DNA of 35,803 nt. Origin: Clostridia bacterium (GTDB lineage: Bacteria > Bacillota > Clostridia > Oscillospirales > Acutalibacteraceae). The position numbers were made by a program, and so were the translations under genes. Below are positions 1,554 through 14,524 of the stretch, one piece after another. The notes under the pieces are model-generated. The model saw nothing but the letters and a program-made list of their open reading frames with translations, ran no database searches and had not been told where the DNA came from. Position 1 is the first letter of the stretch. The number at the start of each line of letters is the position of its first letter. The DNA is taken from the NCBI GenBank assembly GCA_017623315.1, contig JAGAPJ010000045.1, forward strand, positions 1 to 35,803, read 5' to 3'.

Positions 1554-1879
1554 TGTGCCACCTCCCGTATGATTTCTTTTTTGCTCTGCTTAGGCGTATC
1601 TATGATTTCGGCATAGATATCATCAAAGAGCTTCAGCGCCGCCGCTTCGATTTCGGGAGATAAATCACGGTTGAGTAGTTCACTCAGTTTCTCGTTAAAA
1701 ACATAAAAGGCATCGGGAACAACTGCTTTCACAGCGTAACCCAATGCCCGTTTGCGGAGATATTCAGCTACGGGAATACCGCAGCGGTTGGCGAGTTCGG
1801 TGATCTTCTTTTTCTCTGTTGGAGATACCCGAAGATATAACCGACACGGCTTTTCTTTTGGGTTTCTATTCATATACAT
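1514..1879 (-). CDS. MobC-like relaxosome accessory protein
   Basis: A 121-residue protein just upstream of the relaxase and overlapping it by 40 bp. Residues 13-55 (L-Y-L-R-V-S-P-T-E-K-K-K-I ... G-I-P-V-A-E-Y-L-R-K-R-A-L-G) fit the ribbon-helix-helix-like N-terminal region of plasmid mobilization proteins of the MobC type, which bind oriT and help the relaxase melt and nick it. The upstream DNA (1880-2030) is rich in inverted repeats, as expected if the protein binds there. The short start M-Y-M-N-R-N-P-K is preceded by an AAGGT-type ribosome site on the minus strand. Family assignment is from pattern recognition only. Confidence 0.8.
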   Translation of the reverse strand: MYMNRNPKEKPCRLYLRVSPTEKKKITELANRCGIPVAEYLRKRALGYAVKAVVPDAFYVFNEKLSELLNRDLSPEIEAAALKLFDDIYAEIIDTPKQSKKEIIREVAQWQVQASGPSNPD

Positions 1880-1920
1880 ACCTTCTTTCTGTAATCGGGG
1901 TATTAGGGGTGTCCCCTAAA

Positions 1921-2050
1921 GGTGAACAGTAGGCGGAAACGCTTACTGTTTATTTGGAACTTGCCGTACAAGTTCCCTGCTTGTTACGGTGTAAGACACA
2001 CGCCTATGGGCGTATGCCTTCCATTCTCCGTGACTTGCACCGTGAGGGAG
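1921..2050. other. Candidate oriT with nested inverted repeats
   Basis: This gene-free stretch upstream of the mobC-like gene has three inverted repeats in a row. They are AACAGTAGGCG/CGCTTACTGTT with a GAAA loop (1925-1950, one mismatch), GGAACTTG/CAAGTTCC (1956-1976, perfect) and CACACGCC/GGCGTATG (1997-2016, one mismatch). They are followed by a mixed-base segment that could hold the nick site. Position next to mobC and relaxase genes plus this layout is typical of transfer origins, but I do not recognise a defined nic sequence. The rest, to 2232, holds no gene or signal I can support. Confidence 0.45.
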
Positions 2051-2232
2051 CGAAGCTCATACCGTTCTTGTCAGTGCAAATCCTTCAAAAGTTCTATTAT
2101 CTGCGGTATTGGCACCACATTTTATGTGAGTGCCGTCAATTTTTCGTAATAATGGAACCCTTGTATGGAGTGGTGGCAATTTCTTTTAGAAATGCCATCA
2201 CAGTACCGTCAAAAGCAGGGATAAGTGACACC

Positions 2233-2472
2233 TTAGAAGCTGTCAAGGAAATCGAGTACCGCTTCTTCAGTTTCGGTATTGTTTTCTTTTTCGGCGGGTG
2301 TTTGTGCAGAGGGTGTCTGCACAAACTGTAATAGACCGCCAAGAGGATTGATTTTTGCCGTTTCCTCTCGGATAGTGGCGATAACCCTTTCGAGGAAAGC
2401 ATCTTCGGCTGACACCTTTTCGGATAAATCCATAAATCCGCATATCTCAATAAACACTTTGATTTTGGATGC
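2233..2472 (-). pseudogene. Small acidic ORF, probably the 3' remnant of a truncated gene
   Basis: The frame is open from just after a stop at 2473-2475 to the stop at 2233. It could be started at GTG 2457 (74 residues) or at ATG 2433 (about 66 residues). The sequence has a helical middle (A-E-D-A-F-L-E-R-V-I-A-T-I-R-E-E) and an acidic tail ending L-D-F-L-D-S-F. It reads like the C-terminal part of an element-encoded protein in the same direction as mobC. No ribosome site is evident at either start. The region where its upstream part should lie is occupied by another truncated gene in the opposite direction, so I suspect a deletion junction. Function unknown. Confidence 0.45.
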
Positions 2473-3567
2473 TTAATATTTGCTTTAAATAATCTTTCGA
2501 GCAAGGGTAAAACTACTGCCGCAATGCTTTCGACCTCTATAATATCTAATCCAATATTTGACAGAGGACTTATTACGAACTTTAGCGGTACTTCTAATGC
2601 CGTACTAAACTTTGTTTCTCATAGCAACGGTCATACAGTTGTTTTGGATGAAGCAGGTACAGCAGAAGCACTACAATCTCGCAAATTACTATATCAAATG
2701 TGTAGCGGCAGAGAACGTAAAAGGCTAAATACTTCGGGCGAACTAAAAGAAACTGCAGAATTCAACTCTGCAATAATCGTAACGAGCGAACACAGTATAA
2801 TTGACAACTCGGTTCCAAATGGCATAAGAGCAAGAATATTTGAACTTACCGAAGCCCTTACCATAAGTGCTAAGCATAGCAATATTATCAAAACAACTAT
2901 CTTAAATAATTATGGCTTGTTGTATGATGACTTTATTAGCTATGTGATTGATACACCCGATAGAATAATAGAAGATTACAATATTTGTGTTGATAAGCTT
3001 AAAACCGAGTATAAAGGTTGTAAAGGTGAGCTTACCGACCGTATTCTCGAAAAGCTATCCGTAGTATATCTTACAGCTATATATGTCAACGATTGCTTTG
3101 GCTTGGAATTTTGCGAAGAACATATCAAGGATTACATATACACACTTGAAAACCGTATAAATACGGAAACTGACATAGCAGATAAAGCACTTGATTGTAT
3201 TTTGGATTATATCAGTCGTAATTCTTCCAAATTCATTAGAGCAAATATTAGCGATTATGAATCCTGTGTGGAAGGTAAAATAATCAAAGGCGGTAATTCT
3301 GTTGAAATATCAATACTAAAATCGGTTGCCGAAGCTCTACTTGCTAAAAATGGTTACGAGAGTATAAAAACCCTTGTTGAGAAATGGCGACAAAAACAAA
3401 TCTTGCTCTGCGAAAAAGACAGAGCATACAAAAGGGTTAAATGCGCCTTGTTAATTAAGAAAATCATTGAACAATTTTCTCTTGATTTAGGTAAAAAATA
3501 TCGCATTACTTCGAATATCAATATTGTTGAAGGTGAAGAAAAAACAATAGCGGTTAAAATCAAATAA
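2428..3567 (+). pseudogene. 5'-truncated DUF927-type ATPase/helicase remnant
   Basis: The frame is open from 2428. The first ATG (2524) lies inside the domain, so it is not a natural start. Codons just before it give S-S-K-G-K-T-T-A-A-M-L, a degraded Walker A loop (families of this type usually show S-S-x-G-K-T-T). Downstream there is F-S-G-T-S-N-A, the Walker B-like V-V-L-D-E-A, the segment S-G-R-E-R-K-R-L-N, and I-I-V-T-S-E-H-S with a sensor-like position. This matches the ATPase part of DUF927 proteins found in mobile elements and phages beside primase functions. Everything N-terminal to the P-loop is missing. A C-terminal ~150-residue region is retained to a normal stop. Probably non-functional debris inside the element. 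Confidence 0.7.
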
Positions 3568-3703
3568 ACTGTAAATCGTATTTGTAGTAAGACGGTACTT
3601 AATGTATGCGTTTTATGGTACTGTAGAAAATAGGTGCGTTGATATAGCGTTCTACGACTCCGAGTTTCTCGGAACTATACACCAATAAAGGTGTTGAGTT
3701 GTA

Positions 3704-3874
3704 ATGCAACTCTTGAAAATTCAAATAACTAAACAAAGAGGGAAAAGCCCTTATATTGACTATTGTAATGATGAAATAAAGTGCTTACAGCAAAGCGATA
3801 TCGCCGATAATGATTGGCTCGAATTTTTAAAGCCAATGGCTGATTATATAGCACAAGAATTATTTATTAAATGA
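3704..3874 (+). CDS. 56-residue hypothetical protein of the mobile element
   Basis: A short frame starting M-Q-L-L-K-I-Q-I-T-K-Q-R-G-K and ending A-Q-E-L-F-I-K. A possible AAAGGTG ribosome site lies about 14 bases upstream, somewhat far. The N-terminus reads like a beta strand followed by a basic turn, and the C-terminus like an amphipathic helix with W41. A strong hairpin terminator follows at 3888-3916, and the recombinase gene lies after that. Small ORFs often precede serine recombinases and may act as regulators, but nothing in this protein proves a function. Confidence 0.45.
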   Translation: MQLLKIQITKQRGKSPYIDYCNDEIKCLQQSDIADNDWLEFLKPMADYIAQELFIK

Positions 3875-3887
3875 TGACGAAAACTAC

Positions 3888-3923
3888 GGGCTTGGTGGCA
3901 TAACTGCACCAAGCCCTATTTTA
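3888..3923 (+). terminator. Rho-independent terminator upstream of recombinase
   Basis: A perfect 10-bp stem (GGGCTTGGTG 3888-3897 with CACCAAGCCC 3907-3916) has a 9-base loop and is followed by TATTTT. It separates the 56-residue ORF from the recombinase gene, which would therefore need its own promoter in the AT-rich 3920-3960 segment. Confidence 0.75.
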
Positions 3924-3966
3924 AAAATATATTATTTTTTTGATACTAAAGAAAGGAATTTAAACA

Positions 3967-5757
3967 ATGTTAGAAAATAAGATTAAAGCAGTTGGTTATT
4001 GTAGGTTCAGTAGCGACCACCAAAAAGAACTAAGCATTGAGGCTCAACAGCGAGCTATACAAAACTATGCCGATAATAACGGATATGAAATAGTTGAATG
4101 GTATATTGACCGAGCTGTTTCGGGACAGACAGTAAATAGACCTGATTTTCAAAGGCTGTGCCGACAAATTAAAAGTAATGATTGTAATTTTAGTGCAGTT
4201 ATAGTACATAAGCTTGACCGTTTTTCAAGAAATGTAGTAGACACATTTCAATATCAACAGTTCTTCTCGGATAATTATATCGAGCTTGTTTCTGTAGAAG
4301 AAAACTTCAATGGAGATGATTTTATATTAGGACTTAACGCCTTGTTAAATCAGCGTTATGTTCAAAATCTTTCTAAAGAGGTTATGAAAGGAATGAAAGA
4401 GAGAGCACATAAATCTCTTTTTAATGGTGGTAATGCACCATTGGGTTATAAAATAGTTGATGATAAGTACGAGATTGAAGAGGCAGAGGCGGTTATAGTT
4501 AGGGCAATATTCCAAATGGCTGCTGATGGATATGGTTACAATTCTATAATTCAAGAACTTAATCGTAAAGGCTATCGCACAAGAAAGGGCAATACATTCG
4601 GTAAAAATTCTTGCTATGACCTTTTAAGAAATGAGAAGTACAAGGGCGTGTACACCTTTAACAAAGCCGCAAAACGAAATAGTAAGCGAAAGCGTAATAT
4701 GCACAAATATAAAGATGAAAGCGAAATTATCCGTATTGAGAACGCTATTCCTGCAATAGTATCTCCTGAATTGTGGGAAAGGGCTAACGCTTCAAGAAGA
4801 TTAACAGCCAAAACATCCACAAATGCAAAATTTCCTTATCTATTATCAGGACTTGTATATTGCGGCGAATGCGGATGTAAAATGCACGGAAATCATAGAA
4901 AATACGGTGAGAGTGGCTATAACACCTATAAATGCAACAAACAAGCTAACAAGTTGACTTGCGACAGTAGAGAAGTTCGTGCTGATGTACTTGAAGAATT
5001 TGTAATAGACAATCTTATAAAGTTCTTTTTCGGTGAGGGAGTGGTAGAGCAGATAACTAAGCAAATCAATGAGAAAATAAGAGAAAAACTTTCTACAGAT
5101 AGCGAGAGCGTAACACTCGCTAAAAATGCTCTGCATGGGCTGAAACTTGCAAGAGGTAATCTCATAGACGCAATGTCCAAAATTGGCTACAATGAAGCAC
5201 TTTCCGAAAAACTGACAGCAATAGAAAAGCAGATAGCAGAAAACGAAACACTCATAGCCACAGAGGAGAGCAGAAAGACCGAACTAACAGTAACAGAAGC
5301 ACAGGTCAAGGTTAAAATTACAGAACTCAAGAAAGCACTTCAAAACCCACAGCATATAGACAAGACAAAACTATTACTCAGAGAATATATTGAAAGAATA
5401 ACTGTTTATAATAATAAAATTGAGCTAACCGTCAAGGTTAGCTTTTTCTTTACTTTGGATGATGGAAATTTGGTGGATTTCGATTATAACCATACGATTT
5501 TGGAAGATAGATTGCTTATGGAAAACAGCCGAAGCCGATTGTCGAACAACTCCCGAAAAGCATTGGTTCATAGAAATTTGCTCGTTTTCGGGGGTGTTGG
5601 TGTCGATACCGAAAAAAGAAGAACTCCCGACCTATATACAGTCGGAAGTTCAGTGGTGCCGGTGGCCGGACTCGAACCGGCACGCTGTCGCCAGCGGTGG
5701 ATTTTGAGTCCACTACGTCTGCCAATTCCATCACACCGGCAAATTTGTTTGACCTAG
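3967..5757 (+). CDS. Large serine recombinase (site-specific integrase)
   Basis: The open frame is 596 residues, with AAAGAAAGGAA upstream of the ATG. The resolvase catalytic domain (about 1-150) has Y-C-R-F-S-S-D-H-Q with the likely nucleophile Ser15, and V-H-K-L-D-R-F-S-R-N. The Recombinase domain follows (about 160-270), then the zinc ribbon Y-C-G-E-C-G-C-K-M-H with later Cys residues, and a coiled coil at about 380-460. These are hallmarks of large serine recombinases that integrate and excise mobile elements. The recognisable family sequence ends near residue 510. The last ~80 residues are encoded over the antisense strand of the tRNA-Leu terminator and the tRNA itself, which suggests the native stop was lost or replaced at the element-chromosome junction. 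Confidence 0.9.
   Translation: MLENKIKAVGYCRFSSDHQKELSIEAQQRAIQNYADNNGYEIVEWYIDRAVSGQTVNRPDFQRLCRQIKSNDCNFSAVIVHKLDRFSRNVVDTFQYQQFFSDNYIELVSVEENFNGDDFILGLNALLNQRYVQNLSKEVMKGMKERAHKSLFNGGNAPLGYKIVDDKYEIEEAEAVIVRAIFQMAADGYGYNSIIQELNRKGYRTRKGNTFGKNSCYDLLRNEKYKGVYTFNKAAKRNSKRKRNMHKYKDESEIIRIENAIPAIVSPELWERANASRRLTAKTSTNAKFPYLLSGLVYCGECGCKMHGNHRKYGESGYNTYKCNKQANKLTCDSREVRADVLEEFVIDNLIKFFFGEGVVEQITKQINEKIREKLSTDSESVTLAKNALHGLKLARGNLIDAMSKIGYNEALSEKLTAIEKQIAENETLIATEESRKTELTVTEAQVKVKITELKKALQNPQHIDKTKLLLREYIERITVYNNKIELTVKVSFFFTLDDGNLVDFDYNHTILEDRLLMENSRSRLSNNSRKALVHRNLLVFGGVGVDTEKRRTPDLYTVGSSVVPVAGLEPARCRQRWILSPLRLPIPSHRQICLT
5611..5651 (-). terminator. Terminator of the tRNA-Leu gene
   Basis: On the minus strand, GAACTTCCGAC (5651-5641) pairs with GTCGGGAGTTC (5631-5621) with one mismatch, and a T-rich run (TTCTTCTTTTTT) follows. 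It lies 3 bases beyond the encoded CCA of the tRNA. Confidence 0.75.
5654..5740 (-). tRNA. tRNA-Leu (anticodon CAA), CCA encoded
   Basis: The minus strand reads GCCGGTG at 5740-5734 and pairs perfectly with CACCGGC at 5664-5658, followed by discriminator A and an encoded CCA (5656-5654). The T arm contains GGTTCGAGTCC, the anticodon loop is CTCAAAA (anticodon CAA, leucine UUG codons), and a variable-arm stem of class II type is present. The promoter, terminator and encoded CCA look intact. The recombinase frame on the other strand reads straight through this gene, giving the tell-tale tRNA-shadow peptide G-L-E-P-A-R. Confidence 0.95.
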
Positions 5758-5759
5758 CT

Positions 5760-5788
5760 ATTATACATTATATATTATATAAAATCAA
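5760..5788 (-). promoter_or_regulatory. tRNA-Leu promoter
   Basis: On the minus strand there is a -35 TTGATT (5788-5783), a 17-base spacer and a consensus -10 TATAAT (5765-5760), about 20 bases upstream of the mature tRNA 5' end. This shows that DNA up to at least 5788 is resident chromosome, so the phage boundary lies to its right. Confidence 0.8.
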
Positions 5789-5845: not shown

Positions 5846-5905
5846 TCATCGAATAGAAATTTCTTTAACATAGTAAGATATGTTTTAAAAATTTCTATTC
5901 GATGA
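5846..5905. repeat. 17-bp perfect inverted repeat around a 26-base imperfect palindrome
   Basis: TCATCGAATAGAAATTT (5846-5862) is repeated inverted at 5889-5905. The spacer 5863-5888 is itself a rough palindrome (TTTAACATA ... TATGTTTTAA). Read on the minus strand, CTATGTTAAAG (5873-5863) resembles the XerD arm of bacterial dif sites (TTATGTTAAAT in E. coli). There is no ORF here. It could be a recombination site, an operator or a structured RNA. The surrounding stretch 5789-5950 is AT-rich and shows nothing else. Confidence 0.5.
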
Positions 5906-6056: not shown

Positions 6057-6102
6057 CCCCAATTATACAAAATATTCATTTTGTATAATTGGGGCTTTTT
6101 TT
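6057..6102 (+). terminator. Very strong hairpin with T-run at the left prophage end
   Basis: A 17-bp perfect stem (CCCCAATTATACAAAAT 6057-6073 with 6078-6094) and a 4-base loop ATTC are followed by C and seven T. In form this is a Rho-independent terminator. Its right half contains the 18-bp sequence repeated at 11234-11251, so the hairpin overlaps the proposed attL site. Confidence 0.7.
6062..6090 (+). other. Candidate attL (Xer-type) of the microvirus prophage
   Basis: The layout is an 11-base arm (6062-6072), the centre TATTCA (6073-6078) and the arm TTTTGTATAAT (6079-6089). This is the 11-6-11 layout of sites used by XerC/XerD tyrosine recombinases. Centre, right arm and one more base are repeated exactly at 11234-11251, while the left arms differ, as expected when attP and attB share only the centre and one arm. 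The conserved arm matches the XerD arm of typical Firmicutes dif (TTATGTAAACT) at 8 of 11 positions. The site also forms part of a terminator-like hairpin, which weakens the call. Confidence 0.45.
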
Positions 6103-6134
6103 ATGTCTTTTTCTTCTTTAGGAGGTGTTTAAAA

Positions 6135-6203
6135 TTGTTTTTATCCTTGATAGCAATTTTTATTGTTATCTGTTTTTTTATTGTTATTTATTCATTTTGT
6201 TAA
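6135..6203 (+). CDS. 22-residue hydrophobic membrane peptide (phage)
   Basis: A TTG start lies 7 bases after a strong AGGAGGTG site. The peptide begins M-F-L-S-L-I-A-I-F-I-V-I and ends Y-S-F-C, so it is nearly all one transmembrane helix. Its stop overlaps the ribosome site of the next gene (TAAGGAGGTG), a sign of real, coupled translation. There is no core gokushovirus homologue known to me. A role in the membrane, for example in lysis, is only a guess. Confidence 0.55.
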   Translation: MFLSLIAIFIVICFFIVIYSFC

Positions 6204-6215
6204 GGAGGTGTTTTA

Positions 6216-6335
6216 ATGTCTTATCGGGAAACTACACATAGAAATCTTGACCATAAGATTTTCCACCATACAGCTAAGGTTACTAAAAAAATTAATGTTT
6301 CGCCTAAGCAAATGCGTGGAGGTATTCGTTTATGA
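6216..6335 (+). CDS. Small basic gokushovirus protein ending M-R-G-G-I-R-L
   Basis: A 39-residue basic protein with TAAGGAGGTG eight bases... upstream of the ATG and a stop overlapping the next start (ATGA). It is rich in Lys, Arg and His and ends P-K-Q-M-R-G-G-I-R-L. A short basic protein with a C-terminal R-G-G-[IFT]-R-L-like end is a recurring gene in gokushoviruses and is thought to help DNA condensation or packaging, like the J protein of phiX174. The assignment rests on composition, size, place and the C-terminal motif. Confidence 0.7.
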   Translation: MSYRETTHRNLDHKIFHHTAKVTKKINVSPKQMRGGIRL

Positions 6336-6565
6336 GACCTGTTTTTATTTTTCTTATTTTCATTATCGCTTTTAATGTTTATTTCTATTTTGACATTGTA
6401 TCCGATTTCTTTTTTACTCACGGAATTATTAAGTTTATTAAGAAGTTTTTGAAACAAGTCAATTATAGAAAGCTTCATAATTTTTTGTGCAGCGTTTTTA
6501 AGAGTGATAAAGTACGTGATTTTTTTTCTAAAGTATATAATAAAATTTTAAATTTTTTGAAATGA
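6332..6565 (+). CDS. 77-residue membrane protein with basic helices (phage)
   Basis: The gene starts inside the stop of the preceding one (ATGA). Residues 4-20 form a hydrophobic segment (V-F-I-F-L-I-F-I-I-A-F). The rest is strongly basic and amphipathic, with repeated F-x-x-K-x-x-x-K-F-L-K patterns. The layout, one N-terminal membrane anchor and a cationic helical tail, resembles small membrane-active lysis proteins in general, but I recognise no family. It is unusual for the compact gokushovirus genome and a candidate for host-specific function in a Gram-positive cell. Confidence 0.65.
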   Translation: MRPVFIFLIFIIAFNVYFYFDIVSDFFFTHGIIKFIKKFLKQVNYRKLHNFLCSVFKSDKVRDFFSKVYNKILNFLK

Positions 6566-6574
6566 GGTTTTTCT

Positions 6575-6808
6575 ATGCCGTTAAAAATGTATTCTTTTTA
6601 TGATTCAGTATCTAAGCAATCCGTTTGTATTAACTTTTACCGTGATGACCATGAAGCTCAGCGTGAAGCTTTGCATATTTTGGAGTCTATTCCTGAATAT
6701 AAGCGTAAAGACATAAAAGTTTTCTATATCGGTACTTTCAATACTGAAACTCTTGTCATTGAACCTAATGAGCCTTACCTTTGTTTTAGCTTGGAGGATG
6801 ATGCATAA
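6575..6808 (+). CDS. Gokushovirus VP5-like non-structural protein
   Basis: A 77-residue protein with GAGGT seven bases before the ATG. The segment M-Y-S-F-Y-D-S-V-S-K-Q near the start, and V-F-Y-I-G-T-F-N-T-E-T near residue 50, match the pattern of the gokushovirus ORF5/VP5 family (Y-S-V-Y-D-x-K ... Y-x-I-G-x-F-D). That family is a small non-structural protein thought to act in ssDNA synthesis or DNA binding. Its place directly before VP3 fits the conserved VP5-VP3-VP1-VP2 order. The stop TAA overlaps the VP3 ATG (TAATG, 6806-6810). Confidence 0.75.
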   Translation: MPLKMYSFYDSVSKQSVCINFYRDDHEAQREALHILESIPEYKRKDIKVFYIGTFNTETLVIEPNEPYLCFSLEDDA

Positions 6809-7263
6809 TGGTTTTTTATTCCCTTTCAAATTTACCTCCGAAAAATTCCCCCCGGGAGATAAATTGCAAAACGAAATCTATCTTCAAGCTTGTGATGAGC
6901 GACGAAGGACGCAAAATTTTAGTAAAAGATGGTGACTCAAACCTTTTTGATGAAATTCAAATGTTTAAGGATGAGTGCAATATCTATAACATTATTCGCC
7001 GTTATCAACTTGGTGACGTTGGCGTGCTTTCCAAAGTTTCTTCTGCCTATATTGATACTTTAGGTCAACCCAAGACAATGCAGGAAGCGCTTAACCTTTC
7101 ACTTAAGCTCAAGTTAAATTATGATGCTTTGAAGCCTGAGTATAAGTCACAGTTTGCTGACTTTAACGCTTTTCTTAAGTCTTGTTGCGACGGTAGCATT
7201 GTTGATGTCTTAAAACCTTTGGAAAAAACTATTGTTAAGGAGGAAACCCCAAGTGAATCTTAA
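6808..7263 (+). CDS. VP3 internal scaffolding protein (gokushovirus)
   Basis: A 151-residue protein with TTGGAGGAT upstream of the ATG. The central part (N-I-I-R-R-Y-Q-L-G-D, then T-M-Q-E-A-L-N-L-S-L-K, then F-N-A-F-L-K-S) follows the gokushovirus VP3 pattern: a Y-x-x-T/L-G segment, a P-x-x-x-x-E-A-L helix and a terminal F-L-x-x helix. In phiX174-like assembly the internal scaffold (B) directs pentamers of the capsid protein and is removed later. The end overlaps the VP1 start by 11 bases, and the VP1 ribosome site lies inside this gene. Confidence 0.85.
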   Translation: MVFYSLSNLPPKNSPREINCKTKSIFKLVMSDEGRKILVKDGDSNLFDEIQMFKDECNIYNIIRRYQLGDVGVLSKVSSAYIDTLGQPKTMQEALNLSLKLKLNYDALKPEYKSQFADFNAFLKSCCDGSIVDVLKPLEKTIVKEETPSES

Positions 7264-8899
7264 TTCTAATTTTGATTTTAGTAAATTGCCTGTTCTTGAC
7301 GACTCTGTTCAACGTTCTCGTTTTGATAGGTCATTTTCACAAAAAACAACTTTCTCAAGCGGTAAGCTTATACCCATTATGTTGGAAGAAGTGTTACCTG
7401 GTGATACTGTAACACTTGATACTAGTGTTGTATGTCGTATGACTACTCCGCTTTTTCCTGTTATGGATAACGCAAAACTTGATGTTTTCTACTTTTTTGT
7501 ACCCAATCGTTTAGTTTGGGATCATTGGAAGAACTTTATGGGTGAAGATACCTCAAGTTCTTGGGAAACACCTGTTAATTATGAAGTTCCTCAGCGTTAT
7601 GGTGTTGAAGACTCTTCTGGTACTAAACATTCATTTTCTTTCGGTACCTTAGCTGACTATTTCGGTTTACCTTGTGGTTTTAAAATGCCACTTTCTTATA
7701 CTGTTTCCGACCTTCCTTTTAGAGCGTATTACCTTATTTGGAATGAATTTTTTCGCGCCCAGGCTTTACAAGACCCTGTATATTTTGATAAAGGTGACGG
7801 TCTCATCGGCACTTTTGACGCTATAGACCCAGTTCGTATTGATGGTGGCTATGCAGGTAATGCTTATCCAGATTTATCTTTAATGCCTGTTTGTAAGCCT
7901 TTCGATTATTTTACAAGTGCTCTCCCTTCGCCTCAGAAGGGACAACCTGTTGTTATTCCTATGAATGGCTCTGCCCCTGTCATTACTGCCGAGTTACCGC
8001 ATAATCTTGCCGAGTATCCTTTGCGTGCTCTTTTCGGTGTTGAAGAACCTGTTGCTGGTCAAGTTGTTGCTAGTACTCCTTCAGGTCAATCTGGTATAAT
8101 TACGCCAACTAACCTTGTTGCTGACTTATCTAGTTCCGACTTTGTATCAGTAAATGACCTTCGCCAAGCTATTGTTATTCAGCAATTTATGGAAGCTGAA
8201 GCCCGTGGCGGTTCTCGTTATACCGAAATTATTAAAAATTTCTTTGGTGTTGACTCTCCTGATTCACGTTTACAGCGTCCTGAGTATTTAGGCGGTAAAT
8301 CTATTCCTATTAACGTTGACCAGGTTGTTCAAACCTCTTCTAATGATAATCAGCCTTCACCGCTTGGAAATACTGGCGCTTTTTCCCTTACTGGTGATAT
8401 TGACAGTAGTTTTACTTACTCAGCAACTGAACATGGTATGATTATTGGACTTTGTTGTGTACGTCCTTCACATACTTATCAATTCGGCATTGAAAAGAAA
8501 TGGAGCCGTAAACAACGTTTCGATTATTATTTCCCCATTTTTGCAAATATTTCCGAACAGCCTGTATTTACTAGAGAGTATAATGTTTCTTATGCTTCCA
8601 GATATGATGATGTTTTTGGTTATCAAGAAGCTTGGGCTGAGTATCGTTATAATCAAAACAAGGTTACTGGCGCTTTTCGTTGTAATCACCCCGATTCGCT
8701 TGACCCTTGGGTTTATACTGATTCTTCCCTATTTTCAAATGTTTCTCACGAGTTTATTTCTGAGGACCCCGATATTATCGGTCAAACTTTAGCTTATGAA
8801 GGTAATGAGGATACCCAGTTCCTTGCTGATTTCTATTTTAAGTCAATTTGGACACGTCCTATGCCTGTGTATAGTGTACCTGGTTTAACTCGTTTATAA
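7253..8899 (+). CDS. VP1 major capsid protein (gokushovirus, F family)
   Basis: A 548-residue protein counted from GTG 7253, which sits 9 bases after AAGGAGG (7237-7243). An upstream in-frame TTG at 7232 is rejected because it would translate the ribosome site. The N-terminal R-S-F-S-Q-K-T-T-F-S-S-G-K-L-I-P and V-L-P-G-D-T, then F-P-V-M-D-N-A, F-Y-F-F-V-P-N-R-L-V-W and the C-terminal R-P-M-P-V-Y-S-V-P-G-L are diagnostic of the Microviridae capsid (Phage_F) family. Sixty copies form the T=1 shell. The length is normal for gokushoviruses, including the variable surface-loop region in the middle (about residues 230-300), so the gene looks intact. Confidence 0.97.
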   Translation: MNLNSNFDFSKLPVLDDSVQRSRFDRSFSQKTTFSSGKLIPIMLEEVLPGDTVTLDTSVVCRMTTPLFPVMDNAKLDVFYFFVPNRLVWDHWKNFMGEDTSSSWETPVNYEVPQRYGVEDSSGTKHSFSFGTLADYFGLPCGFKMPLSYTVSDLPFRAYYLIWNEFFRAQALQDPVYFDKGDGLIGTFDAIDPVRIDGGYAGNAYPDLSLMPVCKPFDYFTSALPSPQKGQPVVIPMNGSAPVITAELPHNLAEYPLRALFGVEEPVAGQVVASTPSGQSGIITPTNLVADLSSSDFVSVNDLRQAIVIQQFMEAEARGGSRYTEIIKNFFGVDSPDSRLQRPEYLGGKSIPINVDQVVQTSSNDNQPSPLGNTGAFSLTGDIDSSFTYSATEHGMIIGLCCVRPSHTYQFGIEKKWSRKQRFDYYFPIFANISEQPVFTREYNVSYASRYDDVFGYQEAWAEYRYNQNKVTGAFRCNHPDSLDPWVYTDSSLFSNVSHEFISEDPDIIGQTLAYEGNEDTQFLADFYFKSIWTRPMPVYSVPGLTRL

Positions 8900-8911
8900 T
8901 GAGGTGTTTAT

Positions 8912-9505
8912 ATGACTTTATTTACTCCTAAGCCTCCTGCTCTCTATGATAATTCTTTTTTAGGTAAAGTCAGAAATGGTATTATTGATTTTTTTGCTGA
9001 TGGTGCCCGCTTTTGGAATGATAATTCTACTTCTTTTACTGAAGCTTCTCTTGAAAACGGTATCTTGAATAATTTTTATGATGATAAAATCCGCGAAGAA
9101 GCACAAGCTTATAATTCGGCTGAAGCAAAAGCTCAACGTGAATGGGCCTCTCATGAGGCTGAGCTTAATCGTATTTTTCAACAAACATCGGCAGAAAAAG
9201 CAAATGCTTTTACAGCTAATGAAAATGCTATAAATCGTGAGTTTCAGGAACGTATGTCTAATACTGCTTATCAACGTGCCGTTGCTGACCTTCGTGCTGC
9301 AGGTCTTAATCCTCTTTTAGCTTACGCTCAAGGCGGTGCTTCTAGTCCTTCGGGTTCTTCAGGTTCTGGTGCTTCAGCTTCTGGTTCTACTGTTTCAGGT
9401 TCTTCGGCTAATTCAGGTTATTCATTAAGTTCAAAAAGTTCTGCGGAAGAAACTTTTGATTTATTTGGTGGCTTAATTTCAAGCATTATTAAAGCTTTGA
9501 AATGA
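8912..9505 (+). CDS. VP2 DNA pilot / minor capsid protein
   Basis: A 197-residue protein with GAGGTG five bases before the ATG. Residues 109-150 ([14 protein letters not shown], then [13 protein letters not shown], then Q-G-G-A-S-S-P-S-G) are the hallmark of gokushovirus VP2. A long helical stretch before it (about 60-118) and a Ser/Gly-rich tail follow the family layout. By analogy with protein H of phiX174, it forms a tube that leads the genome across the host envelope. How this works on a thick Gram-positive wall is not known. It lies 12 bases downstream of VP1 and is cotranscribed. Confidence 0.95.
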
Positions 9506-9517
9506 AAATTTAATTAT

Positions 9518-9575
9518 AGTGGGAAGTAAATCGTTCTTGTTTTATTTACTTCCCACTGACACAATTTTAATTGTG
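9518..9575 (+). other. Two adjacent stem-loops before VP4
   Basis: A perfect 14-bp stem (AGTGGGAAGTAAAT 9518-9531 with 9544-9557, 12-base loop) is followed by CACAATT/AATTGTG (9560-9575). The second stem holds the GTG of the VP4 ribosome site (GTGAGGTG 9573-9580). No T-run follows, so these are not standard terminators. They could limit VP4 translation, or be an origin for second-strand synthesis on the packaged strand. Confidence 0.65.
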
Positions 9576-9586
9576 AGGTGTTTGTT

Positions 9587-10630
9587 ATTGCTTGTTTTCA
9601 TCCTAATATAGGTCAACGTGTAAAAGGTTCAGGGACAGTTCCTAAAATTATTCGTCCTTATAAAGGTTCTGGTTCTTCAGATGACCTCGAATTCCGTCAT
9701 TTATTTCTTAATGGTGATGTTGATTCCCTTGGACGTGAGTTAGAGACTTTCTTGGTACCTTGTGGTAAGTGTGTCGGTTGTCGTTTAGATTATTCACGTG
9801 AATGGGCTGACCGTTGTTATTTAGAAAGCCTTTCTAAGTCTCCTAATTGGTTTGTTACTTTAACTTATGATGATGTTAATTTACCTGTTACTGAGTTTTA
9901 TGACGGTGAGAACATTATTTATACAAATTCGCTTGTTAAATCCCATATATCAGAATTCTTGAAACGTTTACGACGTTATTATGATTATCATTTTCAATTG
10001 CAAGATATTTCTTTTTATGGTTGCGGTGAGTATGGTTCACAGTTTCAACGTCCGCATTTTCACTTATTACTTTTTGGTTGTCCTATCCCCGACCTTGAGT
10101 TGTTTACATACAAAGACGGTTTTGCTACTTATAATAGCGATATTTTTTCAAAGACGTGGAATAAAGGTTTTGTAACTATAAATGAGTTTACTTGGGAGAC
10201 TGCTTCTTACGTTGCACGTTATTGCCTTAAAAAACAATATGGTGATAATAGCATCTTCTATGAAGCTAATGGTCTTGCTCCTGAATTTTCTATAATGTCA
10301 CGTTCTCCTGGTATTGGTTATAAGTATTTTGATGAACATAAATACGAGATTTTTGAGCGTGGATATATCCCTGTTAAGAAATCTAACGGTGTTTTTCATT
10401 CCCCTATTCCTAAATATTTTGAACGTATGCTTGAGAAAGATGACCCTTTATATTTTCAGCAGTATAAGGTTGAAAAGCGTAATAAGTTTTTTGACTCTTA
10501 TGTTAATGATTTTCAGTTGTCTTCTTCAGAGGTTTCCATTCTCGACCAACGTGATATTGATGAACGTGCTAAGCTCTCTCAGATTAAAGCTCTGCGTCGT
10601 CAGTTTGAAAGTTCTTTTAATATTTTATGA
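9587..10630 (+). CDS. VP4 replication initiator (HUH-type Rep), probable ATT start
   Basis: The rolling-circle initiator, 347 residues from codon ATT 9587. It nicks the double-stranded form and starts rolling-circle synthesis. Motifs (numbered from ATT) are C-G-K-C-V-G-C-R at 59-66, F-V-T-L-T-Y-D-D at 89-96, R-P-H-F-H-L-L-L-F-G at 155-164 (metal-binding His pair) and Y-V-A-R-Y-C-L-K-K at 208-216 (catalytic Tyr region). The start is inferred: the family typically begins M-x-C-F/Y-H-P and here the codons read ATT-GCT-TGT-TTT-CAT-CCT, with GAGGTG six bases upstream. The alternative GTG at 9578 overlaps the ribosome site, so it is unlikely. An ATT start is rare and implies low expression. Confidence 0.93.
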   Translation: MACFHPNIGQRVKGSGTVPKIIRPYKGSGSSDDLEFRHLFLNGDVDSLGRELETFLVPCGKCVGCRLDYSREWADRCYLESLSKSPNWFVTLTYDDVNLPVTEFYDGENIIYTNSLVKSHISEFLKRLRRYYDYHFQLQDISFYGCGEYGSQFQRPHFHLLLFGCPIPDLELFTYKDGFATYNSDIFSKTWNKGFVTINEFTWETASYVARYCLKKQYGDNSIFYEANGLAPEFSIMSRSPGIGYKYFDEHKYEIFERGYIPVKKSNGVFHSPIPKYFERMLEKDDPLYFQQYKVEKRNKFFDSYVNDFQLSSSEVSILDQRDIDERAKLSQIKALRRQFESSFNIL

Positions 10631-10638
10631 GGTGTTTT

Positions 10639-10725
10639 ATGTTAGTTCATATTTTAATTGGTATTTTTATTTTTTTTGTTGGTTTTGGTTTGGCTTGGAA
10701 TATTGCTTTTTCCATTAAAAAGTAA
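10639..10725 (+). CDS. 28-residue membrane peptide after VP4
   Basis: The ATG lies four bases after GAGGTG, and that ribosome site overlaps the VP4 stop (ATTTTATGAGGTG). The peptide is one hydrophobic helix (I-L-I-G-I-F-I-F-F-V-G-F-G-L-A-W) with a K-K end, so a single membrane span with a cytoplasmic C-terminus is likely. The strong signal argues that it is real. Function unknown; lysis or membrane docking are possible. Confidence 0.6.
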   Translation: MLVHILIGIFIFFVGFGLAWNIAFSIKK

Positions 10726-10763
10726 TTGTTACACTTTTGTTACTTTATTTTTTGGGTGATATT

Positions 10764-11024
10764 ATGTATTATATTCTTAGGAATGACGGCTCTTTCATTT
10801 TTGAGTTGCCATATCCTCTTGATTTTTGTCTACATTGTCTTTTTAATTTAATTGACAATCCTGACCCTAATCTATTTAATTGTAAGTTAGTACAGTTTGA
10901 ATTTACACGTCAGGATATTCGGCCCACACGGCCGCATAGTGTGTTTAGCCTTTTGAAGCCTGATATATCAAATCTTCCTTTTAGTTTTGTTGATATTGAT
11001 TTATCTGTTTTTCGTCTTGCTTAA
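10764..11024 (+). CDS. 86-residue hypothetical phage protein
   Basis: Start chosen at ATG 10764, after a weak GGGTGAT site; an upstream TTG at 10737 lacks a ribosome site. The protein starts M-Y-Y-I-L-R-N-D-G-S-F-I-F-E-L-P-Y-P, has C-L-H-C at about 27-30, and later F-E-F-T-R-Q-D-I-R-P-T-R-P. It does not resemble any core gokushovirus protein I know. T-rich third positions match the neighbouring phage genes, so it belongs to the phage. It may be a lineage-specific accessory protein. Confidence 0.65.
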   Translation: MYYILRNDGSFIFELPYPLDFCLHCLFNLIDNPDPNLFNCKLVQFEFTRQDIRPTRPHSVFSLLKPDISNLPFSFVDIDLSVFRLA

Positions 11025-11131
11025 CCCTTCACCCTGTCCAGCTTTACTAACATTTTTACTATTAGTAGTTTTTAAACTGCTCAGCGGAAGCAGGTACAGT
11101 TTTTATTATTTTTACCAAAAGGAGCCTCATT
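11025..11131 (+). other. Phage non-coding segment with nested hairpins
   Basis: A 107-base gap contains ACTA-TTAG-TAGT and a larger stem AAACTG ... CAGTTT (about 11075-11103) that encloses CTGCT/AGCAG. A T-rich run follows the outer stem, so it can work as a leaky terminator. It is the only longer G+C-mixed stretch in this end and a candidate for a replication or packaging signal. Confidence 0.4.
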
Positions 11132-11221
11132 ATGCATCGTGATGATATTTTATTTATTGTGATTTTTACTTTTTCTTTATTGCTTAATTTTGTTTTTATT
11201 ATTAAGTTTTTGTTTATTTAA
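11132..11221 (+). CDS. 29-residue membrane peptide at the right prophage end
   Basis: AAAAGGAGCC lies about six bases before the ATG. After M-H-R-D-D the peptide is a single hydrophobic helix (I-L-F-I-V-I-F-T-F-S-L-L-L-N-F-V). The stop TAA (11219-11221) lies only two bases from the proposed attR. In the excised circle this gene would sit next to the 6135 peptide, giving a cluster of membrane peptides around the joint. Confidence 0.55.
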   Translation: MHRDDILFIVIFTFSLLLNFVFIIKFLFI

Positions 11222-11222
11222 A

Positions 11223-11251
11223 TTATCACTGTTTATTCATTTTGTATAATT
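11223..11251 (+). other. Candidate attR (Xer-type)
   Basis: The 11-base arm at 11223-11233 differs from attL. The centre TATTCA (11234-11239) and arm TTTTGTATAAT (11240-11250) plus one base are identical to 6073-6090. The site follows the last phage stop directly and is followed by an AT-rich stretch (11252-11323) without genes. Confidence 0.45.
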
Positions 11252-11323
11252 CGTAATTAAATTTTAAGAGTAAATTTTAACCTTTCCCCGATTATAAATA
11301 TAATATATTATGTAGTATATTTT

Positions 11324-11358
11324 AAAAACACTATCCATTATTTCAGGATAGTGTTTTT
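11324..11358 (-). terminator. Terminator downstream of the SPFH gene
   Basis: A perfect 13-bp stem AAAAACACTATCC/GGATAGTGTTTTT has a 9-base loop and A/T flanks that give a U-run on either strand. It ends the minus-strand SPFH transcript and also shields the chromosome from phage plus-strand transcription. Confidence 0.85.
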
Positions 11359-11374
11359 AATTTGGAAAATAAAA

Positions 11375-12322
11375 TTATTTATCACAGCAAGGGTCTTCTT
11401 TAGTTGCTATTTTTGGTTTTTCAGCTGATCTTGTTGAATCACCCAAGCCTGTTGTTTCAGTAAAAATGGTATTATTTGTAACAGCATTTACGGCATCGGT
11501 AGGAATTATTAGCTTTGCTGCAGTGCCGTTTGACATTTTAACAAGCGCTTCATATTTTTTAAGTTCTAATACGGCGGCATCAGCACCTGCTTCCTTTAAA
11601 GCCAATAAACCGTCAGCTTCGGCCTTTTTAGCAAGATAAATGGCTCTTGCTTCACCTTCTGCACGAGCTATTCGAGCATCACGCTCGCCTTCAGCGGCCA
11701 AAATCATAGCTTGCTTGTCACCCTCGGCGCGTGTAATAGCTGCAGCCTTGTGACCTTCAGCTTGAAGTAAGGTTTCACGGCGGTCGCGTTCAGCCTTCAT
11801 TTGCTTTTCCATTGCAGACTGAATTTCTTCAGGTGGAATAATGTTTTTAAGCTCAACTCGATTAACCTTCATACCCCACTGATCAGTTGCATCGTCTAAA
11901 ATAGCGGTCATTTTGCCATTAATTGTATCGCGTGAGGTTAATGTACCGTCAAGCTCCAACTCACCAACAATGTTACGAAGTGTAGTTGCGGTCAAGTTTT
12001 CCAAAGCGTTTATAGGATCCACAACACCGTAGGTGTAAAGCTTTGCGTCAAAAATGCGGTAATACACAACTGTGTCGATACGCATGGTAACATTATCCTT
12101 TGTGATAACGGGCTGTGGTGCCGAGTCTAGCACCTGCTCCTTCAGGGTTACACGGCGAGAAATCCTTTGTAATATAGGAATTCTAAAGTGAAGACCCGCA
12201 CTCCAAGTGGTTTGGTATTTGCCTAAAAATTCAATTACATATTCGGTTGCTTGTGGAACAATTTTAAGACAAGAAAGTACAAATAAAATTATAAGTGCAA
12301 ATAGACCAATTAAGAAAGGCAT
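11375..12322 (-). CDS. SPFH/Band 7 membrane protein (stomatin-like)
   Basis: A 315-residue protein. It has one N-terminal membrane helix (2-22: F-L-I-G-L-F-A-L-I-I-L-F-V-L), then the Band 7 domain (about 22-190), with V-L-D-S-A-P-Q-P-V-I-T-K-D-N-V near residue 65 and a V-E-L-K-N-I-I-P-P turn. A long Ala/Glu-rich coiled coil (about 165-250: A-E-G-D-K-Q-A, A-E-G-E-R-D-A) follows. The tail ends D-P-C-C-D-K. Proteins of this QmcA/stomatin type assemble into membrane scaffolds. No NfeD partner is visible; the neighbour upstream is an unknown protein separated by 3 bases and probably cotranscribed. Confidence 0.92.
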   Translation of the reverse strand: MPFLIGLFALIILFVLSCLKIVPQATEYVIEFLGKYQTTWSAGLHFRIPILQRISRRVTLKEQVLDSAPQPVITKDNVTMRIDTVVYYRIFDAKLYTYGVVDPINALENLTATTLRNIVGELELDGTLTSRDTINGKMTAILDDATDQWGMKVNRVELKNIIPPEEIQSAMEKQMKAERDRRETLLQAEGHKAAAITRAEGDKQAMILAAEGERDARIARAEGEARAIYLAKKAEADGLLALKEAGADAAVLELKKYEALVKMSNGTAAKLIIPTDAVNAVTNNTIFTETTGLGDSTRSAEKPKIATKEDPCCDK

Positions 12323-12325
12323 AAA

Positions 12326-13078
12326 TTACATCTCCTTTTTAATTAAAGCAGTCAATAACTTTTTGTTTTTTGCAAAAAAAGGTAAAAACATATTAAATGA
12401 ATTTAAGAAGTGGCTATTGACTGAAAGCATTTCACGAATTTTTGCGGTAACGTTATCGTTTTTATAAGCAGCCGCCGCTAATAGAGCAACAACTGTATTA
12501 ATGGTATCGTTGTCACCTTCTACATAAAAATCAATAATTGTGTTATAAAACTTCTTAATTTGTTTGGTTGTTCCCTCTTCGAAAAGACGAACCATACGTG
12601 GTACAAGATGTTCACCAAAGAAATTAAGATATAAAAAATTACCGTAATGCGAAACATGTGCTTTATATTCGTCCTTGAGCGCGGGGAAAATATCAAGCAT
12701 CTTCTTTGTAAGGGCGTTAATATCACCGTTACTTCCCTTTTGTGTTGTGGGAAGGTCAACAAGTGTGTTAACACGAGTTTTTTTAATTTCAATATTTAAT
12801 TCTTTTCTTAAAGCTTCAGTAAAGTCAATACCAACTGCTGCGGCATCCTTAGCAGTTTGAGTATCATCAAAAAGCCAAGCGCTTAATTGCTTATATTCGC
12901 CAACCTCTTCACCGTTTACGTCAGCAATCGAAATTGTGTATAACTGTTTTTCATCAATATATTCAATTTTTACTGATTTAGTATCGTTTTTTAGAATATT
13001 ACCATCTAAGGTAAGGTTAGCATCCTTAATAACCTCCTGCATTTCAGCAATTACTGAATCAAAATATTTGTTTTCCAA
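12326..13078 (-). CDS. Conserved-looking hypothetical protein, partner of SPFH gene
   Basis: A 250-residue protein, soluble for most of its length. The N-terminal ~100 residues look like a mixed alpha/beta domain (V-K-I-E-Y-I-D-E-K-Q-L-Y-T-I-S-I-A) and the C-terminal half is mainly helical, with a hydrophobic end (F-N-M-F-L-P-F-F-A). I do not recognise the family. It is separated by only 3 bases from the SPFH gene start and shares the promoter at 13112-13140, so the two probably work together. Confidence 0.8.
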   Translation of the reverse strand: MENKYFDSVIAEMQEVIKDANLTLDGNILKNDTKSVKIEYIDEKQLYTISIADVNGEEVGEYKQLSAWLFDDTQTAKDAAAVGIDFTEALRKELNIEIKKTRVNTLVDLPTTQKGSNGDINALTKKMLDIFPALKDEYKAHVSHYGNFLYLNFFGEHLVPRMVRLFEEGTTKQIKKFYNTIIDFYVEGDNDTINTVVALLAAAAYKNDNVTAKIREMLSVNSHFLNSFNMFLPFFAKNKKLLTALIKKEM

Positions 13079-13111
13079 AAGAATTCACTTCCAAATTATA
13101 TTTTTTTATTC

Positions 13112-13140
13112 ATTATACAACATATTTTCCGTTTTGTCAC
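13112..13140 (-). promoter_or_regulatory. Promoter of the hypothetical-SPFH operon
   Basis: On the minus strand: -35 GTGACA (13140-13135), 17-base spacer, -10 TATAAT (13117-13112). It is about 34 bases upstream of the 13078 start and divergent from the ksgA promoter. Confidence 0.7.
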
Positions 13141-13150
13141 CAAAAATTTA

Positions 13151-13179
13151 TTGTAAATATAAAAATGTTATTGTATAAT
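13151..13179 (+). promoter_or_regulatory. ksgA promoter
   Basis: -35 TTGTAA (13151-13156), 17-base spacer and -10 TATAAT (13174-13179), 29 bases before the ksgA start codon, so the leader is very short. The ribosome site is TTAGGAGA. Confidence 0.7.
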
Positions 13180-13207
13180 ATATTTTACTAAATTTAGGAG
13201 ACATTTT

Positions 13208-14059
13208 ATGAATCTTGCAGACGTAAAAACAATTGAATCGTTATTAAAACCTGCGGGTTTTGACTTTAAAAAGTCGTTGGGGCAAAACTTTTTAATTAAT
13301 GATGCTGTTTGTCCTGCTATGGCAAACGCCGCATGTGATGAAAATACAGGTGTTTTGGAAATTGGTCCAGGTATCGGCGTTTTAACAGTCGAGCTTTCAA
13401 AGGTTGCGAAGCGTGTTGTAGCGATCGAGCTTGATGACCGTCTTCGTAAAATTTTACCCATTACTCTAGCTGACTGCAATAATGTTGAGGTTATTTTTGG
13501 TGACGCGATGAAGCTTGATTTAAAAGATATTATTGCAGAAAAATTTAGCGACTGCGAAAGGGTTTGCGTTTGCGCTAATCTTCCCTATTATATCACTTCA
13601 CCAATTATTATGATGCTTTTGGAAAGTAAATTACCAATTGATAACGTTACTGTTATGGTGCAAAAGGAAGCAGCCGAACGTCTTTGCGCTGAAGTGGGCT
13701 CACGCGAAGCGGGTGCTATTACTGTTGCAGTAAATTATTATTCCAAGCCTGAAATTTTATTCGAGGTTGACCGTTACAGCTTTATGCCTCCACCAAAGGT
13801 TGATTCTTCGGTTATTAAGCTTAATATAAGACCAAATCCGCCCATAAATTTGAATGATGAAAAATCCTTTTTTAGTCTCGTTAAATCGTCATTTGCACAA
13901 CGCCGTAAAACACTTGTTAATACCGTATCAAACACTATGGGAATTAATAAGGACACTTTAAGACAAGCCCTTGTGGAATTAGGCTTATCCCCTACTGTTC
14001 GTAGCGAACAATTAACCCTTGATGAACTTGCAGCATTATCAAATAAGCTTAATAATTAA
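13208..14059 (+). CDS. rsmA (ksgA): 16S rRNA dimethyladenosine transferase
   Basis: A 283-residue S-adenosylmethionine-dependent methyltransferase that dimethylates two adjacent adenosines near the 3' end of 16S rRNA during late small-subunit assembly. It shows the family start K-S-L-G-Q-N-F-L, motif I V-L-E-I-G-P-G-I-G-V-L-T at about 47-58, V-A-I-E-L-D (motif II), and the catalytic N-L-P-Y at about 122-125. The C-terminal helical domain has F-A-Q-R-R-K-T-L. Length and motifs are complete. In many Clostridia it lies near sporulation or primase genes; here it is alone between two divergent or convergent units and closed by a terminator at 14065-14100. Confidence 0.97.
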   Translation: MNLADVKTIESLLKPAGFDFKKSLGQNFLINDAVCPAMANAACDENTGVLEIGPGIGVLTVELSKVAKRVVAIELDDRLRKILPITLADCNNVEVIFGDAMKLDLKDIIAEKFSDCERVCVCANLPYYITSPIIMMLLESKLPIDNVTVMVQKEAAERLCAEVGSREAGAITVAVNYYSKPEILFEVDRYSFMPPPKVDSSVIKLNIRPNPPINLNDEKSFFSLVKSSFAQRRKTLVNTVSNTMGINKDTLRQALVELGLSPTVRSEQLTLDELAALSNKLNN

Positions 14060-14064
14060 TATTA

Positions 14065-14101
14065 AAGACCAACTGATTACAAATCAGCTGGTCTTTTTTA
14101 A
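14065..14101. terminator. Bidirectional terminator between ksgA and the NUDIX gene
   Basis: AAGACCAACTGATT pairs with AATCAGCTGGTCTT (one internal mismatch), with a short loop and T-run after it and A-rich sequence before it. It serves both converging genes. Confidence 0.8.
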
Positions 14102-14104
14102 TGA

Positions 14105-14518
14105 TTATAATTTTTTAATAAATGTATCAGCTTTTAAAAGTAAATCCTTATTGTTTTGATGGAAAAAACATTCCAAAGCATTATTAAATGTCATTAGTTC
14201 AGCGCTTAATAGCTCCTCTTTTTGAAAAACAATATCTTGGTTTTTATATTCGCCCAGAAAATAAACGACTTGTTTTTGAACGTCAATAGAAGGTATGTAA
14301 TATTCTACCTCTTCCCTAAAGCCGTCAATCAAAGCTGGTTTTAATCCAACCTCTTCAAAAACTTCACGCAAGGCAGTCTCAATTTCTGTCTCATTATTTT
14401 CGATATGACCTTTTGGAAAGCCGTAAAAACCGTTAATAGATTTAATTATAACGTATTTAATTGTGTTTTCTTCGCGTGTAAAAACAATTACACCACAGGA
14501 TTTTTCATTTTTCATCAT
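14105..14518 (-). CDS. NUDIX hydrolase (Ap4A hydrolase-like)
   Basis: A 137-residue protein with a perfect Nudix box at residues 37-59 (G-x5-E-x7-R-E-V-F-E-E-V-G-L), which binds Mg2+ and cleaves nucleoside diphosphates linked to another group. The start S-C-G-V-I-V-F-T and the segment F-Y-G-F-P-K-G-H resemble bis(5'-nucleosyl)-tetraphosphatase or RNA-pyrophosphohydrolase-like members, but the substrate cannot be fixed. Start chosen as the first of two Met codons. It lies 6 bases after addA and is likely the last gene of that operon. Confidence 0.92.
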   Translation of the reverse strand: MMKNEKSCGVIVFTREENTIKYVIIKSINGFYGFPKGHIENNETEIETALREVFEEVGLKPALIDGFREEVEYYIPSIDVQKQVVYFLGEYKNQDIVFQKEELLSAELMTFNNALECFFHQNNKDLLLKADTFIKKL

Positions 14519-14524
14519 AATACC

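Follow-up and report, generated by a model that had tools for sequence, protein, structure and literature searches.

A 35,803-nucleotide stretch of DNA from a Clostridia bacterium of the family Acutalibacteraceae (contig JAGAPJ010000045.1 of assembly GCA_017623315.1), hereafter referred to as the window, carries a gokushovirus element between positions 6073 and 11251, whose genes were recognized by open reading frame (ORF) calls and by Pfam and PHROGs matches. The inserted gokushovirus genome is 5161 bp (~5.2 kb) long, and all of its genes lie on the forward strand.

Gene content of the element

The core of the element consists of VP5 (6575..6808; Phage_ORF5, 6.7e-7), the internal scaffold protein VP3 (6808..7263; Chlamy_scaf, 2.7e-20), the 548-aa major capsid protein VP1 (7253..8899; Phage_F, 1.6e-137), the pilot or minor capsid protein VP2 (8912..9505; PHROG 'pilot protein', 2.4e-33) and the replication initiator VP4 (9578..10630; REP_ORF2-G2P, 9e-18, and phrog_942, 6e-102). 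The reading frames of VP1, VP2, VP3, VP4 and VP5 are all open and share a single orientation, the gene set expected of Gokushovirinae, and the Pfam and PHROG matches agree with a preliminary description in which intact VP1 to VP4 genes and a VP5-like gene had been recognized on one strand. The start of VP4 may be GTG at 9578 or ATT at 9587, the latter being the homologous start position when judged by eye against related VP4 starts. No integrase or recombinase was matched among the seven element ORFs scanned against Pfam and PHROGs, a scan that left out shorter and overlapping-frame ORFs.

Several smaller features surround these genes. A basic 39-aa ORF (6216..6335, forward strand) with AAGGAGGTG just upstream is presumably a VP8/J-like DNA-binding protein gene. 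It is followed by a 77-aa ORF (6332..6565, forward strand) with a hydrophobic N-terminus and a basic C-terminus, for which Pfam, PHROG and PADLOC gave no match; its single hydrophobic segment and basic tail make it a possible lysis-protein candidate. A 14-bp inverted repeat (9518..9557, forward strand) was located by repeat search in the VP2/VP4 interval. Downstream of VP4, small hydrophobic ORFs precede a 95-aa ORF taken from the ORF list (10737..11024, forward strand), for which searches of Pfam, PHROG and PADLOC were likewise negative.

Attachment sites and empty sites in related genomes

The ends given in the preliminary description, 6073 and 11251, coincide exactly with the outer limits of a perfect 18-bp direct repeat, whose two copies (6073..6090 and 11234..11251, forward strand) both read TATTCATTTTGTATAATT, i.e., spacer, right arm and one T. 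A repeat of this length at such spacing was reached by only one of 300 Markov sequences, and by itself it is evidence of limited, modest weight. The spacer and right arm in the left copy belong to a 28-bp palindrome at 6062..6089 (forward strand), a perfect 11-6-11 structure, ATTATACAAAA-TATTCA-TTTTGTATAAT, which represents the attL site and a predicted intact dif. Comparison with empty sites defined attR at 11223..11250 (forward strand), composed of a degenerate left arm from the phage (TTATCACTGTT), the spacer TATTCA and a right arm from the host.

In the host genome, the 28-mer has a single match at no more than three mismatches. The same palindrome is empty in three relatives (G063, G069 and G064, the last with two arm mismatches), where it adjoins the same SPFH gene and is followed directly by sequence resembling the window's DNA past the right repeat. 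The order of tRNA-Leu stretch, empty site and SPFH side is kept in G063, and the host DNA on the right side of the phage is collinear with that of G063 for more than 20 kb in three blocks (71-79% identity). The flanks named in the preliminary description, a tRNA-Leu gene and an SPFH gene, were both recovered, as a tRNA-Leu (caa) at 5654..5740 and an SPFH/Band_7 gene at 11375..12322, both host genes on the reverse strand. Because G063, G069 and G064 have an empty palindrome beside the same SPFH gene, the insertion is very probably real and exact, and the tRNA-Leu is not its target. Thus the empty sites called for as a check do exist at the same locus, and together with the G063 collinearity and the dif-like target they bear out the proposal of an integrated gokushovirus.

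The tRNA-Leu had been considered as a target in its own right and was rejected: its stretch in G063 adjoins the empty site, and no 14-mer of positions 5600-5760 recurs in the window. The real attachment site, the 28-bp palindrome, lies about 320 bp from the tRNA-Leu. A 27-bp inverted repeat (5846-5905) is located between the tRNA-Leu and the dif-like site, and a similar one is present in G063.

An artefact of assembly or binning, in which the circle of a free phage became fused in error to a contig of the host, would also place these genes beside host DNA. The window corresponds to C69, one of the 141 contigs of a draft genome (1,666,552 bp, 87.1% complete), and microvirus contigs in metagenome-assembled genomes are described as a known source of error in the available text of PMC9239249. 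Such an error would nevertheless have had to place both junctions at a conserved site that is empty in relatives, and the arrangement is found again in other assemblies as well as in the record of a named strain (see below). In addition, the VP1 cluster of the window comprises four contigs, the longest of 202,403 bp according to the cluster record only, and the stretch shared by the two ends (18 bp) is below the usual word sizes of assemblers. An artefact therefore appears improbable.

The target palindrome as a predicted dif site

A pattern of the two arms only, allowing up to three mismatches, was matched in 46 of the 70 genus genomes (26 of them without any arm mismatch), as against 8 of 70 for a reversed control pattern; the extra copies in five genomes are three-mismatch matches, and several genomes with only a three-mismatch match may reflect chance. 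The site shares a contig with a full-length SPFH gene in the window, G063, G069 and G064, whereas the remaining genomes with both features have them on separate contigs; in G082 the separation is perhaps only because contigs break inside an inserted element. When 29 loci were aligned on the site (no more than five mismatches), the left flank CTnCCCTnA was found to be kept and the right flank to follow a T-rich pattern. In all six stretches tested, GC skew to the left of the site exceeded that to the right, and its sign clearly changed in G087 (+0.070/-0.102) and G086 (+0.056/-0.066).

A PF00589 domain was detected within 1 kb of the site (65-191 bp away) in at least 19 of the 46 site-bearing genomes. 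Eighteen of the 19 site-linked proteins were compared and were 36-72% identical to the XerD-like protein of the host genome, the lowest value (36%) belonging to a G083 copy with internal stops. Three of the site-linked proteins were scanned with the XerD model and scored 306-314 bits (cut-off 329.6), and the host's own XerD-like protein, which is encoded on contig C92 and not on the site's contig, scored 317.5 bits. Because there is one good copy per genome with changing neighbours, a shift in GC skew and a linked Xer-family gene, the palindrome looks like a dif site and is likely to be that of the host.

A single-recombinase system of the XerS, XerH or XerL kind was also considered but is not supported: a second Xer-like protein (338 aa) is present in G065, and 61 of the 70 genus genomes have at least two PF00589 matches, phage integrases counted, so that the one-Xer pattern does not hold. 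Loci such as L015, L022 and L023 display a putative linked xer-dif module in Clostridia. A different element occupies the same predicted dif in G082 (contigs C30 and C21; L031 and L035), where the contigs end roughly 120-130 bp inside it.

Related prophages and viral contigs

Among 70 genus genomes and 60 relatives, VP1 or its family was found in the host genome only. Across the order, the VP1 family was detected in 4 of 394 genomes, own included; of the other three carriers, G368 has a whole element, and G426 and G453 have it in pieces or at contig ends. A scan of genome contigs, which used the window's own VP1 group as query and is biased toward its kin, returned 18 loci, 11 of which were titled Clostridia or Clostridiales. 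All eight loci on contigs longer than 10 kb were so titled, and the seven loci with non-Clostridia titles were on contigs of 4.3-5.5 kb.

An attachment-site script was applied to 13 loci. Prophage-length repeats at palindromes were identified in L162, L163, L164 and L170, the palindromes differing in sequence from that of the window (e.g., CTTTTCGCAAAA-CACTTC-TTTTGCGAAAAG); in L167 a similar site forms the end of a 77-bp repeat, and L165 has a palindrome without a prophage-length repeat. Repeats only at contig ends were observed in L172 and L176, and no att sites were found by the script in L161, L166, L168, L175 and L178. An Xer-like ORF was detected by tblastn in 7 of 12 loci (L161-L164, L167, L184 and L186), and the same search found none in L168, L170, L178, L185 and L187. 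In L170, two gokushovirus prophages stand in tandem (8265-18680; 5173-bp unit, one palindromic site) in the Clostridia draft bin Lapin-008.

Other relatives carry a further type of palindrome. In G368 (L184), a genome of the same order, a 177-kb contig carries AATTGAACAAAA-TTTTTA-TTTTGTTCAAT with the left flank CCCTCCCCTTA, a spacing of 5225 bp and an Xer-family ORF about 195 bp from the palindrome. A palindrome of the same type with one mismatch, ATTGAACAAAA-TTTTTA-TTTTGTTTAAT, occurs in the named strain Pusillibacter faecalis MM59, where VP4, VP5, VP3, VP1 and a gene at the VP2 position lie at about 232980-238280 of NZ_AP023421.1, a record of 503,999 bp named a plasmid whose genes are annotated one by one only. 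A gene annotated as XerC is 58 bp from this palindrome; the site has no direct repeat of at least 11 bp, and its downstream counterpart was recognized through a three-mismatch match to the core.

Among viral contigs, the G368-type palindrome was present in 21, three of which (L207, L210 and L214) match VP1 and 18 of which do not; one of the latter, L213, has by eye a terminase-like ORF of a tailed phage. The VP1 of L214 is identical to that of G368, and the main matches of the VP1s of the IMG/VR contigs L207 and L210 to this group are 70-78% identical. A palindrome of the TTTTCGCAAAA type was found in two viral contigs, neither with a VP1 match. The circular genome of the human gut gokushovirus SH-CHD2 (KX513865, L189) has a G368-type site at 4650-4677 with mismatches at 2 of 22 arm positions, compared with 5-9 at best in 40 Markov versions; tested with the 17-base core alone (four mismatches, chance 0.365), the match was not significant.

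These relatives also bear on whether another recombinase made the insertion, either a large serine recombinase encoded at 3967-5757, outside the phage element and in a frame antisense through the tRNA-Leu, or a tyrosine integrase elsewhere. The serine recombinase gene is only 0.3 kb left of the element, and in P. faecalis a recombinase-family gene is likewise present, 3 kb past the prophage. However, the former abuts the tRNA-Leu beside an apparent mobilizable element, the palindrome is conserved genus-wide, G063 keeps the site without the left-hand element in the alignment, and the G368 and P. faecalis prophages adjoin Xer-family genes, which together make insertion by another recombinase highly improbable. 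The region 180-5757 is a probable integrative mobilizable element, in which we take the reverse-strand ORFs 180-1553 and 1514-1879 to be relaxase-like and MobC-like, respectively.

A terminator-like hairpin at the upstream junction

Around attL, a terminator-like hairpin with a 17-bp stem and a 4-nt loop followed by CTTTTTTT was recognized at 6057..6102 (forward strand). The stem exceeds the 28-bp core, as the host CCCC pairs with the phage GGGG, with the T-run next to it. The RNA fold is -22.1 kcal/mol (z -7.6), compared with -10.7, -9.5 and -1.1 kcal/mol for three empty sites and -1.2 kcal/mol for the free-phage junction; in shuffle tests, two of the empty sites likewise folded better than chance (z -6.1 and -10.0), as any palindrome would. 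The same hairpin pattern is seen in L210 (-26.3 kcal/mol, T7), and P. faecalis has a 5-bp stem extension (-18.8 kcal/mol) without a good T-run. Counted by eye, the four prophages with an upstream intact site include three whose stem reaches beyond the core, by 5 bp in the window, 6 bp in L210 and 5 bp in P. faecalis, compared with 1 bp in two empty sites; the fourth, G368, has no extension (-11.3 kcal/mol). L163, which is near-palindromic at both ends and forms a hairpin with T9 (-15.1 kcal/mol), was excluded from this three-of-four count.

The palindrome could on these grounds be only a transcription terminator hit by chance and not dif, given the strong hairpin and T-run after insertion and the empty sites that fold better than shuffles. 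Yet the empty sites fold more weakly, the neighbours of the site change between genomes, and one good copy per genome, an Xer-family gene linked in 19 of 46 genomes and the shifts in GC skew argue for dif, and a mere terminator is thus decidedly improbable.

The extended attL stem suggests that integration creates a terminator, or else that the host half-site was copied by template switching. It is tempting to extend the former to a repressor-free lysogeny switch shared by Clostridia gokushoviruses, in which insertion at a palindromic xer-linked dif would bring the conserved C-run of the host together with a G-run and a T-run from the phage, and the resulting terminator at the upstream end, absent from both the free phage and the empty chromosome, would silence or insulate the prophage. 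This idea is doubtful: an integration-built terminator is not general, because G368 lacks the extension and L162, L164 and L170 have their intact palindrome at the downstream end.

Proposed mode of insertion

Taken together, we estimate a probability of about 0.87 that a gokushovirus was inserted at the likely dif of a Clostridia host and most likely joined by the host Xer machinery. The free circle would carry TTATCACTGTT-TATTCA-TTTTGTATAAT, i.e., one good arm with the spacer and one poor arm, and a host Xer recombinase, the predicted agent because no integrase was found in the phage, would cross this half-matching site with the chromosomal palindrome. The product has its intact palindrome on the upstream side and the degenerate one on the downstream side; the intact copy would keep chromosome-dimer resolution working, and the degenerate arm would make excision rare, for which the gonococcal island (PMC5357621, in the portion available) offers a comparison. 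With no recombinase of its own among the seven scanned ORFs, the element resembles an integrative mobile element exploiting Xer (IMEX), and its insertion at chromosomal dif is likely, as the site carries dif hallmarks.

Several observations weigh against this proposal. The analysis covered the assembled contigs of a draft host genome, which is probably metagenome-assembled (141 contigs, 87.1% complete). The skew differences are small in G065, G083 and the window; no Xer gene adjoins the site in the host genome, G063, G069 or G082; and the site-adjacent xer copy of G083 has two internal stops. The second PF00589 protein of the host genome matches XerC only weakly (55.8 bits, cut-off 335). Furthermore, no Phage_F match was obtained in the other 69 genus genomes, and the exact 18-bp core was found in nine viral contigs, none with a VP1 match, so that these contigs yielded no free phage with the window's attP.

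It is also conceivable that the phage inserted once and is now a dead relic, unable to leave or replicate, as the degenerate downstream site (TTATCACTGTT versus ATTATACAAAA) might suggest. The core genes are all open, however, and a VP1 89-90% identical is encoded on a contig of phage length (5650 bp), and we regard a relic as unlikely. We infer instead, from the insertion and by likeness to the enterobacterial gokushoviruses, that the phage may still be viable and temperate. The preliminary description had proposed a temperate gokushovirus of a Gram-positive, spore-lineage host: the insertion is supported and Spo0A is present in the host genome, and the phage is predicted to be temperate.

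Phylogenetic placement and comparison with known systems

In INPHARED, 3709 records match VP1, none of which reaches 60% identity. A VP1 phylogeny, which had been proposed as a check, was built from 47 gokushovirus rows and placed the window in supported clades: its partner there is P0002 (90%), and the pair is nested in clades of metagenomic proteins with 17 rows (100/99) and 19 rows (100/100). The VP1s linked to Clostridia are scattered across many branches, and the phiMH2K, Citrobacter and Burkholderiaceae rows form one clade (98/91). This tree has a midpoint root, contains gokushovirus rows only, as chosen by the author, and includes ten open forks and long branches for SpV4 and phiMH2K.

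The closest known parallel is provided by the enterogokushovirus prophages of Escherichia and its kin (EC6098), which, as described in the accessible part of PMC7062461, share an integrase-less gokushovirus gene set and are bounded upstream by an intact 11-6-11 dif and downstream by a variable one. In hosts deleted for xerC or xerD these phages yielded no lysogens, and complementation restored lysogeny in the xerC deletion but not in the xerD deletion (PMC7062461). In contrast, the host of the window's element belongs to Clostridia, the predicted dif differs in sequence and is perfectly palindromic, the opening of the gene circle puts VP4 last, and VP1 is 41% identical to its Citrobacter relative. 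The P. faecalis MM59 element, also in a Clostridia strain, likewise combines gokushovirus genes with a neighbouring xer gene and dif-like palindrome, but its VP1 is 46% identical, it is inserted upstream of VP4 and its palindrome is another one. A further analogy is LME-1 of Legionella with XerL-dif, an IMEX through which a palindromic dif close to the terminus came to light; LME-1 itself is a different kind of element, and XerL is a single recombinase more than 400 kb from dif in L. pneumophila (PMC9765430, text available in part).

Complete microvirus prophages in two Firmicutes isolates, Erysipelatoclostridium and Mammaliicoccus sciuri, were published in 2022 (PMC9239249), and are set beside the window here without an insertion site or microvirus family, neither of which appears in the portion of that text at hand. 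Integrated microviruses in Bacteroidetes and gokushoviruses in Enterobacteriaceae, as cited in the preliminary description, are indeed known, and with these Firmicutes cases on record a Gram-positive host is in itself no longer a first. Hence dif-integrating gokushoviruses and microvirus prophages in two Firmicutes isolates are already known, and the window's element is a Clostridia branch of the former. In the literature covered (titles, abstract openings and open-licence texts, among the matches listed), a gokushovirus prophage at dif in Clostridia was not found, and the hosts in Clostridia, the xer-linked palindromes and P. faecalis MM59 as a carrier have no earlier report among those matches; the element provides a useful host link.

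Gokushoviruses are widespread in metagenomes, including those of the gut, whereas isolates are rare and hosts little known (PMC7062461, in the part available). The locus described here and the empty sites in sister species tie one gokushovirus lineage to a Clostridia genus at base resolution, and the phage marks a class of palindromic dif-like sites in Clostridia. The two-mismatch G368-type site of SH-CHD2 would predict a host of the G368/Pusillibacter kind. Given the related prophages of other Clostridia and of P. faecalis MM59, host range, lysogeny and microvirus lysis of a Gram-positive cell become directly testable.

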